Below are positions 1-20,782 of a DNA stretch of 22,410 nt, one piece after another. The stretch comes from a virus, in the IMG/VR virus record IMGVR_UViG_3300020183_002271, positions 1-22,410 of that record; one strand, given 5' to 3'. The stretch's first letter is position 1. The number at the start of each line of letters is the position of its first letter. The translations under genes were made by a program, and so were the position numbers. The notes beneath the pieces were generated by a model that made no database searches, was not told the origin of the DNA, and worked only from the letters and a program-made list of their open reading frames with translations.

Positions 1-1011
1 AGCCGCGACCACATTGGCTGGGCCTTCATGACCTGGCGCAATTGGAAACCGGAGCTATTCACCGACACCGGACGCCCTAAAATCGATGAAGGAATTTTGC
101 AAGGAATCGGCACAATGGAGGCCGATACATTTGGACGGATTTTGGAACTACAAAAAGCTCTTGGTCAACTCAGTGACGGAGCCAATGCGTGGCTTAAGAT
201 GGTTACCAAAGCTGGTCGTATTCATCATACGTGCCAACTTGCCACGAACACAGGCCGTAACGCCCACAGCCGTCCTAACCTGGGTCAGACTTCCTCTGAT
301 CCTCGTTGCCGCGCTTTGTTTGGCCCTGGCGAAGATATGCGTCAGGTTGGTGCTGATGCTTCTGGACTTGAGCTGCGTATGCTTGGCCACTATCTTGCTT
401 ATTATGATGGGGGTTCCTTCGCAGATGTTGTTGTCAACGGAGACATTCATCAACAGAATGCTGACCGTGTTGGCTGTTCCCGAAAAGATGTCAAGACATT
501 GATTTATGCGTTTATCTACGGCGCATCTGATCGGAAGATCGGAGTATCTTTGGATAAGTCCCTCGACGACAAGAAGGCTGCTGCTCTCGGCAAAGACATC
601 CGCAAGAAGTTTCTTGAGGCTATTCCTGGTCTTGATCAACTTCTCAAAGCAGTCAACAAACGAGCAGAGTCCGATGTCATCAAGGCATTAGACGGCAGAC
701 CAATTCGTCTTCAAGGCAAAAAACACGCTGCCCTTAATTATCTCCTTCAATCCGCAGGGGCTATTGTTTGTAAGCGATGGAACGTCATTGCTTACGACTC
801 CTTTCAAAAACTTGGATACAAGTGGGACATTGATTACCAATGGCTTGGCTGGATCCATGACGAAATACAGCTCGCTGTCCAACCGCACCTTGTCAATGAC
901 GCCAAATTCCAACTCGAATGGGCCATCGTCCAAGCAGGAGAGTACTACAACCTCAAGGTCCCCCTCGCCTCAGAAGCGAAGGAAGGAAGCTCCTGGGCTG
1001 AATGCCACTGA
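1..1011 (+). CDS. T7-type (family A) DNA polymerase, C-terminal part; 5' end outside window
   Basis: Replicative DNA polymerase of the T7 gp5 type; the visible 336 residues form the fingers and palm. The reading frame is open from base 1 (SRDHIGW matches the SRDHI stretch of T7 gp5), so the ATG at 28 is internal. Motif A is DASGLEL with the metal-binding Asp codon at 355-357. Motif B (O helix) follows the pattern KTLIYAFIYG, with Tyr codon 505-507 at the T7 Tyr526 / E. coli Phe762 position. Motif C is HDE in WIHDEIQ near 860. The protein ends in WAECH, close to the WAICH end of T7 gp5. The 3'-5' exonuclease domain and the thioredoxin-binding region, if present, lie upstream of the window. The next gene, an exonuclease, overlaps its end, as in the T7 gp5-gp6 order. 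The family call is very secure. Confidence 0.97.
   Translation, partial: SRDHIGWAFMTWRNWKPELFTDTGRPKIDEGILQGIGTMEADTFGRILELQKALGQLSDGANAWLKMVTKAGRIHHTCQLATNTGRNAHSRPNLGQTSSDPRCRALFGPGEDMRQVGADASGLELRMLGHYLAYYDGGSFADVVVNGDIHQQNADRVGCSRKDVKTLIYAFIYGASDRKIGVSLDKSLDDKKAAALGKDIRKKFLEAIPGLDQLLKAVNKRAESDVIKALDGRPIRLQGKKHAALNYLLQSAGAIVCKRWNVIAYDSFQKLGYKWDIDYQWLGWIHDEIQLAVQPHLVNDAKFQLEWAIVQAGEYYNLKVPLASEAKEGSSWAECH
979..989 (+). promoter_or_regulatory. Purine-rich Shine-Dalgarno candidate for the exonuclease
   Basis: AAGGAAGGAAG lies within the polymerase C-terminal codons. It is the strongest SD-like run in this neighbourhood. It sits 8 bases before the in-frame CTG at 998 and 12 bases before an out-of-frame ATG at 1002. 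It therefore points to initiation at 998 or, if there is an indel, at 1002, rather than at the ATG at 896, which has no SD. Confidence 0.45.
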
Positions 1012-1735
1012 TACCCACCTTCGTATTGATGCTGACTTCTTTGCCTATCGGGCATGTCAGGTCAATGAGGTGGAACTAGAATGGGGTGACGACCTGATCA
1101 CCATTGCTTCCAACTTTAAGGAAGTGATTCGAGCCTTTTCCAGTGAGATCAATTCTCTCAAGAAACGGTTTGATACTGAGTACGTCACCCTGTACTTCTC
1201 AGACAGCAAGAACTTCCGTAAGGTTGTTGACCCTGACTACAAGGGCAAACGCACCAAACGCAAGCCAGTGGGCTACAAGCGTCTGCTGGAGTGGTGTAAA
1301 ACTGAATACACAACCGTCCGTTATGCCAACGTGGAAGCGGACGACGCTCTGGGAATGGAGTGCCATCTGGACCCTAGTAACTTTGTTCTAGTAAGTCCAG
1401 ACAAGGATATGAAGCAGATCTCCTGCCGCCTATTCAATGGCGAAGAGGAGTTCAACGTAACCCCAGAGGAGGCCGATTACTGGTTCTGGACACAATGCTT
1501 GACAGGTGACCCAGTTGACGGCTATAAAGGAGTTCCAGGGGTAGGTGCCATTGGTGCCAAGAAGATCCTGGACAAAGCCGAAGATCCGTGGGAGGCTATC
1601 GTGGCAGCCTACGAAAAAGCTGACTTGACCGAGGAAGACGCCATCCGCAACGCTCGTCTGGCACGAATCCTTCGTCCCGGAGAGTACAACTCAACTACGA
1701 AGGAACCTATTTTATGGACACCCTCATTTGGCTAG
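998..1735 (+). CDS. 5'-3' exonuclease, T7 gp6-like (start uncertain)
   Basis: FEN/PIN-type 5' nuclease, the T7 gp6 equivalent that removes primers and degrades host DNA. Visible landmarks are the acidic start RIDADFFAYRAC, the EADDALG and SPDKDMK metal-binding segments, the helix-hairpin-helix-like LTGDPVDGYKGVPGVG, and a C-terminal ARILRPGEYN...ILW block that resembles the end of T7 gp6 (ARILRFNEYN...YLW). The start is odd: the frame has no ATG between 896 and the conserved RIDADFF. An ATG at 896 lacks an SD and would add 34 residues that are an out-of-frame reading of the polymerase. CTG at 998 has a strong SD. An ATG at 1002 has good spacing but is in another frame. I give 998 as the most economical start. 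The end overlaps the next gene by 22 bases. Confidence 0.9.
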   Translation: MNATDTHLRIDADFFAYRACQVNEVELEWGDDLITIASNFKEVIRAFSSEINSLKKRFDTEYVTLYFSDSKNFRKVVDPDYKGKRTKRKPVGYKRLLEWCKTEYTTVRYANVEADDALGMECHLDPSNFVLVSPDKDMKQISCRLFNGEEEFNVTPEEADYWFWTQCLTGDPVDGYKGVPGVGAIGAKKILDKAEDPWEAIVAAYEKADLTEEDAIRNARLARILRPGEYNSTTKEPILWTPSFG

Positions 1736-7008: not shown

Positions 7009-7860
7009 ATGCCTGAACTCACATTTGATGCCACCGATCCGGTGGAGACCGAAGCCCGTGAAGCTGAAGAGGCTCGCCTTCTTGAGTTGGGTAGTAAGCT
7101 CCAGGCCGAAGAGGAGGCCATTCAACAAGAGACCTACGACAAAGCCCGTAAGGATTCTGAGGCAGAACTTAATTACGCTGGCAAGTTTAAGTCAGCCGAA
7201 GATTTGGAAAAGGCTTATCTGGAACTCCAGAAAAAGCTTGGCCAAAAGGATGAAACCGAAGAGGCAGAGTCAGGGGAAGAGTCGGAGGCAGAGTCAACAG
7301 AAGATGCTGCTGAGGAACCCGCTGATGAATTGGCTTCTGAAAAGGATGCGATTCAAAAAGCATCCGAAGAATACTATGCCAACAATAACCAGCTCAAGCC
7401 TGAGACCCTCCAGAAGCTCAAGGAACTGCCTTCCGAAAAGCTAATTGAGGCCTACATCGAACTTCAAAAGAACGCGCCTCCTGTGGCCGCACAGCCGCTT
7501 TCTGATGCCGATGCTCAGGACATTGTAAAGGCCGTTGGCGGAACAGAATCGTACAACCAAACACTGGCCTGGGCTGCTGAAAATCTTTCGCCTGCCGAAG
7601 TGGCTGCTTACGATAATGTCGTAAACAGTGGTAACAAAGATGCCATCTTCTTTGCTGTTCAGGCTCTTAACCAACGGTACAAAGATGCTGTTGGATTTGA
7701 GGGTAATCAGGTTTCTGGCAAGGCTGTGAAGAACACCGTCAAAGGTTTCCGTTCACAAGCCGAACTTGCCAGGGCTATCAACGATCCACGGTATCGAACA
7801 GATCCTGCGTATCGTTTGGACGTGGAAACCAAGCTGGAAGCCTCTGGCGATCTGCTTTAA
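7009..7860 (+). CDS. Capsid assembly scaffolding protein, T7 gp9-like
   Basis: A 283-residue, strongly acidic, helix-rich protein that would nucleate procapsid assembly and leave before DNA packaging. The N-terminal half is Glu/Ala-rich, with an especially acidic run around residues 83-110 and predicted coiled coils. The C-terminal region FRSQAELARAINDPRYRTDP followed by AYRLDVETKL matches the end typical of T7-like scaffolds, where the DPRYxxDPAYR block precedes the capsid-binding tail. It lies directly before the capsid gene. No Shine-Dalgarno is visible before ATG 7009 (the upstream bases are ATCACCACC), which is shared with several other structural genes here. Confidence 0.9.
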   Translation: MPELTFDATDPVETEAREAEEARLLELGSKLQAEEEAIQQETYDKARKDSEAELNYAGKFKSAEDLEKAYLELQKKLGQKDETEEAESGEESEAESTEDAAEEPADELASEKDAIQKASEEYYANNNQLKPETLQKLKELPSEKLIEAYIELQKNAPPVAAQPLSDADAQDIVKAVGGTESYNQTLAWAAENLSPAEVAAYDNVVNSGNKDAIFFAVQALNQRYKDAVGFEGNQVSGKAVKNTVKGFRSQAELARAINDPRYRTDPAYRLDVETKLEASGDLL

Positions 7861-7957: not shown

Positions 7958-8024
7958 GACGCTATGATCTAATGGTAAGATGCCCTTATGAGGGGCAATG
8001 TGGGTTCGACCCCCACTAGCGTTC
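7958..8024 (+). ncRNA. Truncated tRNA-like element
   Basis: Three tRNA arms can be folded. Acceptor stem GACGCTA (7958-7964) pairs with TAGCGTT (8017-8023), six Watson-Crick pairs plus one G-U. The D arm is ATCT-AATGGTA-AGAT (7967-7981) with the usual loop pattern and TG spacer. The T arm is GTGGG-TTCGACC-CCCAC (8000-8016) with the canonical TTCGA loop. Only 18 bases (7982-7999) remain between the D and T arms, where a normal tRNA needs about 22-23. The best fold there is a 4-base-pair stem GCCC/GGGC with loop TTATGAG and a 3-base variable loop. A formal anticodon would be ATG, which is not a normal bacterial tRNA. No CCA is encoded. It is either a decayed tRNA or a tRNA mimic used as an RNA-processing signal. 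Confidence 0.5.
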
Positions 8025-8053
8025 ATTGAGGATGGGACAACCTCGTTAAAAAC

Positions 8054-8067
8054 CCAGTCATGACTGG
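8054..8067. repeat. Perfect 14-base palindrome
   Basis: CCAGTCATGACTGG is an uninterrupted inverted repeat with no spacer. Such a site suits a dimeric DNA-binding protein better than an RNA hairpin, because there is no loop. It lies 122 bases before the capsid ATG, between the tRNA-like element and the competing hairpins. No known operator is recognised. Confidence 0.5.
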
Positions 8068-8068
8068 A

Positions 8069-8112
8069 GTATTGGCCCGGTGCGCCGGATACCCAATACA
8101 AAGGACGTATTG
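8069..8112 (+). promoter_or_regulatory. Mutually exclusive hairpins in the capsid leader
   Basis: GTATTGG (8069-8075) pairs with CCAATAC (8093-8099), enclosing an inner CCGG-TGCG-CCGG stem-loop (8077-8088). The same CAATAC (8094-8099) can instead pair with a second GTATTG (8107-8112), closing a 7-base loop that holds the SD-like AAAGGA (8100-8105). The two folds cannot coexist because they share CAATAC. This direct-repeat/shared-complement layout is that of a simple RNA switch or attenuator, but no function has been shown and it could instead be a recombination or processing site. Confidence 0.45.
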
Positions 8113-8146
8113 CCTAACAACCGAATATCTCAAATCCGGATAAAAA

Positions 8147-8158
8147 CCAAGTACTTGG
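8147..8158. repeat. Perfect 12-base palindrome
   Basis: CCAAGTACTTGG, without spacer, lies 30 bases before the capsid ATG. A shorter palindrome ATCCGGAT lies just upstream at 8134-8141. It could be a protein-binding site or part of the capsid promoter region; nothing in it identifies the ligand. Confidence 0.4.
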
Positions 8159-8188
8159 GAAACTGATAAATTTCACTTTCCTAAATCA

Positions 8189-9187
8189 ATGACTGCAACT
8201 GTAACTCAACTCGGCCAGATTAATAAGGCTGGCGACAAGAAGGCTTTGTACCTCAAGCTGTTTACCGGCGAAGTGTACGAAGCTTTCCGTAACTCCACCA
8301 TCGCTAAGGGTCTGGTCATGAACCGCACCCTCCGTGGCGGTAAGGAGGCCCAATTCATTCACACCGGTCGCATTCAGGCTGGTTACCACGTCCCTGGCAA
8401 CGCTATCCTGGGCTCGGGTAATCCTCCTGCTGCTGAGACCACCATCGCAATGGACGACCTGCTGGTTGCCTCCGCGTTCGTCGATAACCTCGACGAGACC
8501 CTGGCCCAGTATGACATCCGTGGCCCCATCGCTCGTCAGATCGGCCAAGCCCTGGCTGAGTTCTATGATCGTCGGATCTTCCGCGTTCTGGACCGTGCCT
8601 CCGGCCTGACCGCTGCCGTGACCGGTGAGCCTGGTGGTTTCCAAGTGAACCTGGGTGCTGGTAATGAGTATGATGCTCAAGCCCTCGTTGACGGTTTCTT
8701 CGAAGCTGCTGCTCGTCTCGATGAGGTGGCTGCTCCTAAGGACGGTCGCGTGGCTGTGCTGAGCCCCCGCCAGTACTATGCCCTGATCAGCCAGGTGGAC
8801 ACCAACATCCTGAACCGCGACTATGGCAACAGCCAGGGTTCGCTGAACAGCGGTGAGGGTCTCTATGAGATCGCTGGCATCAAGATCTACAAGTCGAACA
8901 ACATCCCCTTCCTGGGCAAGTATGGTTCGCCTGCTGGTCTGGCCATCGACGCTGCTGCTGTGACCGGTGAAAACAACAACTACGGTGTTGCTTCGAACTT
9001 CACCAACTCCTGCGGTCTGATCTTCCACCGTGACGCTGCTGGCGTTGTGGAAGCCATCGGTCCTTCGGTTCAGACCACCGGTGCTGACACCAAGGTGATC
9101 TACCAAGGTGACGTGATCGTGGGCCGTCTGGCTTACGGTGCTGGTGCTGTCCGCGTTTCCGTGGCTGGCGCTTTCCGTAACGTCTGA
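8189..9187 (+). CDS. Major capsid protein, T7 gp10-like (HK97 fold)
   Basis: A 332-residue capsid subunit. The N-terminus GDKKALYLKLFTGEVYEAF corresponds to T7 gp10 GDKLALFLKVFGGEVLTAF. It is followed by a GGKEAQFIHTGRIQAGYHVPG block (T7: GKSAQFPVLGRTQAAYLAPG) and then TTIAMDDLLVA...YDIRGPIARQIGQALAEFYD. Length and position after the scaffold fit. Codon use is more GC-rich and biased (CTG, CGT, GCT, GGT, ATC, AAC) than in neighbouring genes, as expected for the most abundant virion protein. It ends with tandem in-frame stops TGA TGA (9185-9190), so no obvious read-through form is predicted. No Shine-Dalgarno is visible before ATG 8189; the upstream bases are pyrimidine-rich. Confidence 0.96.
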   Translation: MTATVTQLGQINKAGDKKALYLKLFTGEVYEAFRNSTIAKGLVMNRTLRGGKEAQFIHTGRIQAGYHVPGNAILGSGNPPAAETTIAMDDLLVASAFVDNLDETLAQYDIRGPIARQIGQALAEFYDRRIFRVLDRASGLTAAVTGEPGGFQVNLGAGNEYDAQALVDGFFEAAARLDEVAAPKDGRVAVLSPRQYYALISQVDTNILNRDYGNSQGSLNSGEGLYEIAGIKIYKSNNIPFLGKYGSPAGLAIDAAAVTGENNNYGVASNFTNSCGLIFHRDAAGVVEAIGPSVQTTGADTKVIYQGDVIVGRLAYGAGAVRVSVAGAFRNV

Positions 9188-19800: not shown

Positions 19801-20782
19801 AATGAATGGATTGATCACGGGCAACGGTCCTGTAGATCCGCAAGAACGCACAATCTGGCTCCAAACCCATCGTCCTATGTCCATTAAAATTGGTGATGCT
19901 TGGGTGTCATATCAGCCAATTGAACCGTTAAGTACTCTTATGGCAACCATTGCTGACATTGCAATGCTGGCTAATATGGGCGCTGCTGATGCGGCTGAAC
20001 GTCTTGCTGGTCAAACTGGCTATGCCATAGCTGCTGCTGTTACGGAAAAGAGTTACCTTGCTGGTCTGGCCAGTATTGCTGAAATTCTTGACCCACAAAA
20101 TATGACGGCAGACGGTGCGGCGCGAGGGCTACTTAGTACTGTCAATAATTTCTTCCCATATGCTGGTGCTAGGCGTGGTCTTGCCAACGCTCTGGATCCA
20201 TATATAAAGGAAGTTGACGGAGAACTTAAGCGTGCTCTTAATGCTGCCCTTCCTGGATACAAACTGCTTGGCCCTACAAAGGTCGATTTCCTTACGGGAA
20301 AGGATGTTGAGTCTTCCGCTGGTGGTCTTTACAATGCCATTAGTCCGATCCGTTATGCAAAAATGGGCGAAGACCCTGTAAAGGATATGCTGGTTAACAT
20401 CAACTACGAACTCAAGGATGTGGTTAAGACCGGTCCTATGGGGGTTGAGTTGACCGGTGAGCAACGGAGAATCCTATCGCAGGAGATGTATCGTAATGGC
20501 GTCCGACAACGTTTGGAACGCCTTATCAAGCAGGACTGGTTTAAGGAGGATGTGGCTAACTGGAAAGCCCGTGGTCTTAATTTCTCCACAGAAGATAACC
20601 GCCCCCGCCATTATCAAGCTGTTCAGCGGATTATCACTCAATCCAAAGAGTCCGCATTCCGCACAATGCAAGCCAAAGATCCTGGATTTGCCGAGATGGT
20701 CCGTAAAGCTCGCCAAGAGCAGGTCAAGTCGCGGCGAGGCATTTACACCGAAGTTAATGATTTGACCAATTACCCTAACTGA
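16784..20782 (+). CDS. Giant internal virion/ejection protein, T7 gp16-like
   Basis: 1332 residues from ATG 16784, similar to the 1318 of T7 gp16. The start MTTSWREFGSS is followed by a charged coiled coil (about 20-60, runs of E, R, Q and K) and long helical regions. Hydrophobic stretches include KLAEGLLTFGVGMKLAASRL, GLKGAIASGIVPGALADFML and MTVAIAGMAAMNGLITG (997-1013), consistent with a protein that crosses or lines the cell envelope during ejection. No transglycosylase Glu motif is seen at the N-terminus, unlike T7. In-frame TTG 16739 would add 15 residues but has no SD. ATG 16784 also lacks one and may depend on the short upstream ORF. Assignment is by position, size and composition. 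Confidence 0.85.
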   Translation: MTTSWREFGSSQRQGVEDPLERNKKDEEERRRQQAEQQRRQAEELKKKQQEEAARTRNPLASIQEALGQDAARPLLQGIDRTFGTNLDQIREQNIERAGGREAIKQRQQQVTEGFQREADKGANIVGSEAIRAVVRTPVNLLEGVLNTGELIKDTVSAPFQKDPKKNPFDRRYVQAAYDFKVEGPKTPVGKLAEGLLTFGVGMKLAASRLPKGAVGLGTGGKGLKGAIASGIVPGALADFMLAKPGDGNLSNLVQDLVPEEYRDTFLFALATDKDDDPWTARLKTVLEGAGTGAAVDTLIYLKWGRNATQRALKAGKSQAQAVSEGLKAADAKRVELEKALPKKIEQEGIRWSDAQQKETERLLERENFLINEEANLRNAGLDDSDPNLQRVIQELEEVRLNQSQLDSEIVRGYDPEDITLAPQERSATVDTTDVNRVVAQQLELERGPIPDSARVPDVPSTFRTNQAALGGSDHILTDAAYRILNLDDEVENFVRQTTRRTDLQTLAKSLGRSTDSIVADAARIVQEVRDASRQWNDPTDNIADLLKRSGAMMEVRGATDGTSGDILTREGVVALKALITDTSNQIFDLALNADKALEARMVGGNQFDRMVDRLVTMLGLHKQAAVFHGGGLQAFGLDLMGGIHVRGDAADDSVELTMRQAREWAAKVKELKRIGDPEAQDQLEKLVRAMALAGGNPTKAVNFTYIAAKLGVDELMNGMYNSILSGPITHLRNVIGNSYALLERPTSIMLRGFLNNDETLRRSAVAGYHGIVSSVQEAWRVGWTSMKTGDSVNLNAKFVIEDAQALAGIERLKMAAKPGSNEERAAGFVEALYRFTHNPIISLPSRMMIGADDFFKTLTARQKVQTDAMYKAMSEAQSADDVDGLFQSYMKEFSKKIDPTTGRILDPTLLEYAERATFQQDPGSQVNAMANFLNSIPYGIGRIFVPFVRTPANILAYAGQHTPGLARFLTQFKEAERVGDELLLAELKGREAIGSMTVAIAGMAAMNGLITGNGPVDPQERTIWLQTHRPMSIKIGDAWVSYQPIEPLSTLMATIADIAMLANMGAADAAERLAGQTGYAIAAAVTEKSYLAGLASIAEILDPQNMTADGAARGLLSTVNNFFPYAGARRGLANALDPYIKEVDGELKRALNAALPGYKLLGPTKVDFLTGKDVESSAGGLYNAISPIRYAKMGEDPVKDMLVNINYELKDVVKTGPMGVELTGEQRRILSQEMYRNGVRQRLERLIKQDWFKEDVANWKARGLNFSTEDNRPRHYQAVQRIITQSKESAFRTMQAKDPGFAEMVRKARQEQVKSRRGIYTEVNDLTNYPN

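Follow-up and report, generated by a model that had tools for sequence, protein, structure and literature searches.

In animal mitochondria, long transcripts have tRNA folds at the borders between messages, and these folds are real decoding tRNAs. The RNase III sites of phage T7 are hairpins that lie between genes, in the early region and elsewhere. mascRNA and menRNA (RF01684), from the 3′ end of MALAT1 and MEN-beta, are small eukaryotic tRNA-like RNAs with an acceptor, reduced arms, and a T-arm, and mascRNA is a substrate of both RNase P and RNase Z. At gene borders in plant mitochondria, tRNA-like sequences called t-elements mark where RNase Z and/or RNase P cleave to mature the message (PMC8662596).

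The DNA analyzed here, called the window, is the whole of a 22,410-base virus record with a T7-like gene order, and the closest isolates to its T7-like genes infect Synechococcus. A tRNA-like structure sits in the gap between the scaffold gene end at 7860 and the major capsid gene (Table 1). Like the t-elements, it is a tRNA-like fold at a gene boundary and not a tRNA gene; unlike them, it is found in a virus record with T7-like genes instead of a plant mitochondrial genome, belongs to phages of cyanobacteria, stays at a constant position throughout an entire phage group, and has both a mini form without the decoding arm and an alternative form, termed form B below. By analogy, the window element may work like a t-element, while not being a member of that set. 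The counterpart in phage Syn5 resembles mascRNA/menRNA in its arms, and RF01684 is its best, although non-significant, Rfam match (23.4 bits against a cut-off of 42.5, E 1.5), but that family is eukaryotic and the Syn5 element is not a member of it; cmscan of the window listed no RF01684 match. The phage element also differs from the decoding tRNAs of animal mitochondria and, being a tRNA fold, from the RNase III hairpins of T7. A genuine tRNA-Gly(TCC), annotated and supported by ARAGORN, is present at the same spot before the capsid gene in NATL1A-7 (57% capsid identity), and it shares the acceptor/T-arm stack but, unlike the window element, has an intact anticodon arm and is called by ARAGORN.

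A tRNA-like fold lacking a usable anticodon

The sequence-only reading had claimed that a tRNA-like element with paired acceptor, D, and T arms and a canonical T loop occupies this spot, with an anticodon region about 4-5 bases short and no sensible anticodon, and our analysis bore this out in each respect. The RF00005 (tRNA) model matched in full (1-71) and exactly over the element in a cmscan of the window, with 43.8 bits (E 1.8e-6) against a gathering cut-off of 29 bits. A separate RF00005 profile search of the window's own record gave no match, with two loose first-pass candidates scoring below the limit, and the full cmscan was relied on where the two disagreed. Apart from this sub-standard tRNA match, the element lies outside every Rfam family. 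The acceptor has 7 pairs, the first of which is G-U, the D-loop carries the canonical GG, and the T-arm, with its 5-bp stem and canonical loop, is the only one found on either strand of the window by a motif-plus-stem search. Only 18 nt separate the D-stem from the T-stem, compared with about 22-23 in a tRNA, and in the minimum-energy fold this middle region forms UGCCCUU-AUG-AGGGGCA, that is, 7 bp closed by a 3-nt loop and not the anticodon arm of a 5-bp stem and 7-nt loop with a usable anticodon. ARAGORN called no tRNA and no tmRNA over the whole window, and thus the combination of a tag-peptide frame with a tRNA-like domain was not found either. An alternative pairing as a functional His-like tRNA (GCCC-TTATGAG-GGGC, 4 bp/7 nt, anticodon ATG, C at 73) was rejected because base 26 would be missing and the variable loop would have only 3 nt. 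A v-snoRNA-1 match at 14234-14167 of the window (28.3 of 75 bits, cmscan) was taken as chance. The folding energy of the element, −23.2 kcal/mol (z −2.0), is modestly unusual and by itself insufficient; it is covariation that carries the case.

Table 1. Features of the window and of related phage records, with the basis of each assignment
Feature	Record	Position	Strand	Basis
Scaffolding protein gene (upstream gene)	window	7009..7860	+	ORF list; position and comparison with annotated S-CBP2 gene order
tRNA-like structure, 3-arm form A	window	7958..8024	+	RF00005 match, covariation across relatives
Acceptor helix, 5′ strand GACGCTA	window	7958..7964	+	pairs with 8017-8023; homologous helix covaries at 7/7 pairs
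D-arm ATCT-AATGGTA-AGAT, D-loop GG	window	7967..7981	+	sequence; alignment helix 2, 83.7% of cells paired
Degenerate decoding arm, hairpin TGCCCTT-ATG-AGGGGCA, 3-nt loop	window	7981..7997	+	fold; T7981 common to D-stem
T-arm GTGGG-TTCGACC-CCCAC	window	8000..8016	+	sequence; alignment helix 3, 100% paired
Acceptor helix, 3′ strand TAGCGTT	window	8017..8023	+	RF00005 match, covariation
C at discriminator position	window	8024..8024	+	sequence
Capsid-gene leader, proposed 5′ untranslated region	window	8025..8188	+	sequence and fold
Stem GAGG/CCTC in leader	window	8028-8044
Hairpin in leader	window	8054-8067
Stem-loop GTATTGG..CCAATAC in leader	window	8069-8099
Major capsid protein gene	window	8189..9187	+	tblastn, 71% identity to S-CBP2 (Synechococcus phage) capsid protein
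Extra mini tRNA-like elements	P-SSP7	603-647 and 975-1044		early gene gaps; 975-1044 just before gene at 1079
Extra mini tRNA-like elements	S-TIP37	986-1033 and 1441-1486		early gene gaps; start of 986-1033 overlaps a gene's end
Extra mini tRNA-like element	NATL1A-7	around 23770	minus	near a gene edge
Glutamine-II riboswitch match	L207	835-888
Glutamine-II riboswitch match	L213	837-890
Glutamine-II riboswitch match	L214	597-649
Glutamine-II riboswitch match	L218	688-742
Glutamine-II riboswitch match	L221	832-888

Three forms of the element in capsid leaders and their covariation

Capsid-based retrieval from viral contigs, together with 24 named phage or fosmid records and the window, gave 212 leaders, and the census covered 173 leaders of capsid genes, all non-identical, from T7-like phages of cyanobacteria. 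Three forms were distinguished: form A has an acceptor helix and a T-arm, with the other arms present or absent; form C is a T-arm hairpin with an imperfect acceptor that overlaps the scaffold gene; and form B is a covarying hairpin of about 10 bp with the near-invariant loop CACCUCAGAGUCGGA (15 nt). Counted as non-identical sequences and not as independent lineages, 93 leaders had form A with a perfect acceptor, 7 form A with an imperfect one, 23 form C, and 44 form B. Six were unassigned, of which four (L007, L008, L057, and L443) are form A by eye, one (L036) is a truncated contig, and one (L447) has none, and hence a related element is present at this spot in every complete census leader but one. 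Form A occurs in Syn5, P60, P-SSP7, S-TIP37, S-SBP1, and S-CBP42, and form B in S-CBP1, S-CBP4, S-RIP2, 9515-10a, and NATL2A-133, while in S-CBP2 the T-arm is accompanied by an acceptor that pairs imperfectly.

L001, the nearest relative, shares the window's element, with one compensatory change, C-G to U-A, in the middle hairpin. In other relatives, with capsids 90-96% identical, the element lies equally far from the capsid gene but looks quite different: three-arm forms with middle loops of 3-6 nt (L005, L007, L016), mini forms made only of an acceptor, a short D-like hairpin, and a T-arm (L003, L017, L023, L061), and in some cases form C, with the T-arm hairpin over the scaffold stop. Across form A the decoding arm is either lost or has a loop of 3-6 bases, and forms without it predominate. 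A tRNA-Asn that ARAGORN called in the L002/L004 variant was not accepted as a working tRNA, its loop having C at position 33. A blastn search with the window leader against phage records found no match, because the sequence of the leader diverges while its structure stays. Extra mini elements occur elsewhere in some of the genomes (Table 1); matches in Syn5 (27019) and S-TIP37 (24727 and 32582) lie inside coding genes and are probably due to chance.

When a stacked site was defined as a T-arm directly on an acceptor helix with at least 11 bp in total, such a site was found in 78 of 171 non-identical leaders and in 3 of 3420 dinucleotide shuffles, and in 1.41 Mb of contigs 15 sites fell in capsid leaders and 1 elsewhere. 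Over both strands of the window, the element at 7958-8024 was the single stacked site. A Roseobacter-phage capsid protein was used to retrieve 50 non-identical leaders of capsid genes for comparison, and none of them had a T-arm or form B; in the sets compared, the element is restricted to phages of cyanobacteria. Three leaders related to Roseobacter phage CRP-125 (L511, L514, L576) have another small hairpin with a ACCUnCUUAGGU-like sequence at a similar place, which is possibly a further type of boundary element.

Thirteen three-arm sequences, including the NATL1A-7 tRNA and the degenerate tRNA-Gly(UCC) of L401, were aligned with MAFFT without regard to structure. All seven acceptor pairs had changed on both sides, which none of 500 shuffles reached, with 98.9% of cells paired, and sliding the partner by one column lowered the pairing of the whole structure from 95.6% to 43-46%; the structure tested was the window's own, which somewhat favors the observed register. 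Because MAFFT misplaced the 5′ acceptor strand of the mini forms, these were examined by a permutation test in which 3′ acceptor strands were re-paired with the upstream sequence of other phages: acceptor pairing was seen in 55 of 70 leaders, compared with a mean of 20.1 and a maximum of 32 in 1000 permutations, and the leaders contained 40 distinct acceptor 5-mers. The covariation across related cyanophages that the earlier reading had called for is thus present, and its view of a retained mimic, not random decay, is strongly supported by the fixed position, the covarying acceptor, the repeated loss of the decoding arm alone, and the 50 non-cyanobacterial leaders devoid of the element.

Form B, picked by its loop alone, has a 9-bp stem in which 9/9 pairs had changed on both sides (covariation score exceeded in 0/500). 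Its stems contain 69 G-U but only 5 A-C oppositions, which indicates that the selected molecule is the sense RNA, and the orientation of the element is always sense to the capsid gene. The conserved structure and position, the compensatory changes, the sense-strand RNA nature, and the dispensability of the decoding arm are established by these comparisons. Form B sites lie directly upstream of the capsid gene on the same strand in 114 of 119 cases. Form B has neither the T-loop nor the acceptor of a tRNA, and it matched nothing in Rfam at the loci scanned. Its 32 matches in 84,980 prokaryote genomes come from unrelated taxa and fall below the roughly 120 expected by chance for a 16-mer, so it is not a host element; we consider it a candidate new RNA motif. 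Its position, its mutual exclusion with form A, and its similar helix length are the features that suggest an equivalence of the two forms.

Several other features of these regions were observed. A TGGG in the loop of the leader stem GAGG/CCTC could pair with CCCA at 8053-8056 to form a pseudoknot (region 8028-8056), and in L066 and L069 that loop has GGC or GGA, with CCT downstream. A second motif, GCC-stem-loop-stem-GAYA(N)C within an outer stem, is represented in the window by GTATTGGCCCGGTGCGCCGGATACCCAATAC at 8069-8099. By a loose regular expression used without shuffle control, it was found in 198 of 212 cyanophage leaders and 42 of 50 non-cyanobacterial T7-like leaders, and it looks like a separate conserved capsid-leader RNA that has no Rfam name and reaches well beyond the phages of cyanobacteria. 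In six leaders (L020, L035, L037, L039, L053, L063) a gene that by appearance resembles a homing endonuclease gene lies between the leader and the capsid start, and the tRNA-like element and the leader stay upstream of it. Glutamine-II riboswitch matches of 40-56 bits precede a short gene a little way before the element in marine cyanophages (Table 1).

A proposed cut mark on the late transcript

We put at about two in three the probability that, for T7-like phages of cyanobacteria, the conserved tRNA-like RNA of the late transcript is a processing signal, and cleavage by RNase P/RNase Z at the start of the capsid message, as the sequence-only reading had suggested, appears to be the best explanation. 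Once transcribed, the element would fold into a tRNA-shaped acceptor/T-arm stack, with a GG in most UUC-loop forms that could make the elbow contact between the D-loop and the T-loop. Host tRNA-maturation enzymes would cut beside it: RNase Z is the most likely one at the 3′ end, and RNase P may act at the 5′ end; by tRNA geometry, the RNase Z cut in the window would fall right after 8024 and the RNase P cut just before 7958. The capsid message would be freed with its new 5′ end only a few nucleotides from a stable hairpin. We infer all three parts of this scheme, namely, the enzymes, the cleavage itself, and the benefit of a separate stable capsid message.

Cyanobacteria possess both RNase P and RNase Z (PMC10989914), and several RNAs that are tRNA-like or come from phages are RNase P substrates (PMC11143913). 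In Syn5, where one promoter serves over 37 kb (PMC3950665), the 15-base promoter was found at two sites, 4929 and 44797, and at no other; the element, at 19842-19882, lies about 15 kb downstream, so that a separate capsid message would need cutting. In 81 of the 93 elements of form A, UUG or UUA lies within 0-3 nt of the end of the acceptor. The stable hairpin of the leader comes next, and a message cut by RNase Z would thus have a structured 5′ end. Host RNase E rises during P-SSP7 infection (PMC10989914; PMC9692554), and such a protected end would plausibly help. The 5′ cut is more doubtful, because 52 of 86 form A leaders have, within the element, the stop of an upstream open frame of 30 codons or more, compared with 79 of 274 control windows, and RNase P would then remove the stop codon of the upstream message. 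RNase Z cleavage on the 3′ side is therefore favored as the common function, and RNase P might be optional. The scaffold stop of the window is 97 nt upstream of the element, where either cut would probably be harmless.

One alternative is that the leader stays uncut and controls capsid translation or message stability as a mimic that binds either the ribosome or a tRNA-handling protein such as EF-Tu, an aminoacyl-tRNA synthetase, or a modification enzyme. The element precedes the structural gene in greatest demand, and its elbow, the D/T contact, appears to be kept, but the acceptor and the middle arm vary freely, as the 40 acceptor 5-mers show, which means that no synthetase identity is kept, and the extra copies between early genes look like punctuation and not like capsid-specific control. 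We consider this alternative unlikely.

A cut by another nuclease that needs only a hairpin, such as RNase III or RNase E, with the tRNA likeness being incidental in some lineages, would suit form B, a plain hairpin of about 10 bp with a special loop at the same place, and T7 uses RNase III sites for this processing job. RNase III usually needs longer helices, however, and form A matches tRNA in its T-loop consensus (UUCRANN or UGCRANN) and in its stack length, which totals 11 or 12 bp in 81 of 93 elements, the stack of a tRNA being 12 bp. In addition, a D-loop-like GG is present in the upstream insert of 42 of 44 elements with UUC T-loops but 13 of 35 with UGC T-loops, where several lie in stems (kinship uncorrected), and close relatives switch both features together (UUAA with UGC in L363, UUAGG with UUC in L370). 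The G18-U55 and G19-C56 elbow contacts would predict this pattern, which has no meaning for RNase III. This alternative thus seems very improbable.

The element might instead be a phage tRNA gene of host origin whose decoding arm is disappearing through drift. The tRNA-Gly of NATL1A-7 and the UCC kept in the degenerate arm of L401 make a tRNA origin likely for at least some copies. The earlier reading had asked whether homologous phages carry a full-length tRNA here, and they do in NATL1A-7, which, with L401, points to tRNA origin or tRNA replacement; recent decay did not hold up, since forms without the decoding arm are the rule and covary. The almost fully paired acceptor and the compensatory change that keeps the middle hairpin of the window and L001 paired also contradict drift, to which we give hardly any weight. 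Weakest of all is a DNA-level feature, such as a hot spot for recombination or an attachment site that copies the 3′ half of a host tRNA, for although tRNA genes are common attachment sites and endonuclease-like genes are inserted nearby in several relatives, those genes lie downstream, between leader and capsid start, and the pairing kept under sequence change, the excess of G-U over A-C, and the constant sense orientation are signatures of RNA, making it next to incredible.

Possible punctuation of phage transcripts in cyanobacteria

Returning to the processing signal, a broader proposal is that tRNA-shaped punctuation before the capsid gene, and in some phages between early genes, replaces multiple promoters or RNase III sites across the phage group, and that form B can fill this slot and serve the same function, its single hairpin possibly imitating a tRNA elbow. 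We offer this only tentatively, at somewhat less than an even chance. No published description of the element was found in the open-licence literature, which does not prove novelty.

T7-like phages of cyanobacteria are abundant, yet it is not obvious how their capsid message comes to be separate and strongly expressed. The conserved tRNA-like element at the boundary of the capsid gene offers an answer that is concrete and testable, and it suggests that the phages borrow the tRNA maturation of their hosts. The leaders also provide a natural series from a real tRNA to a minimal mimic, and the elements are compact candidate RNA-processing parts for cyanobacterial genetics.
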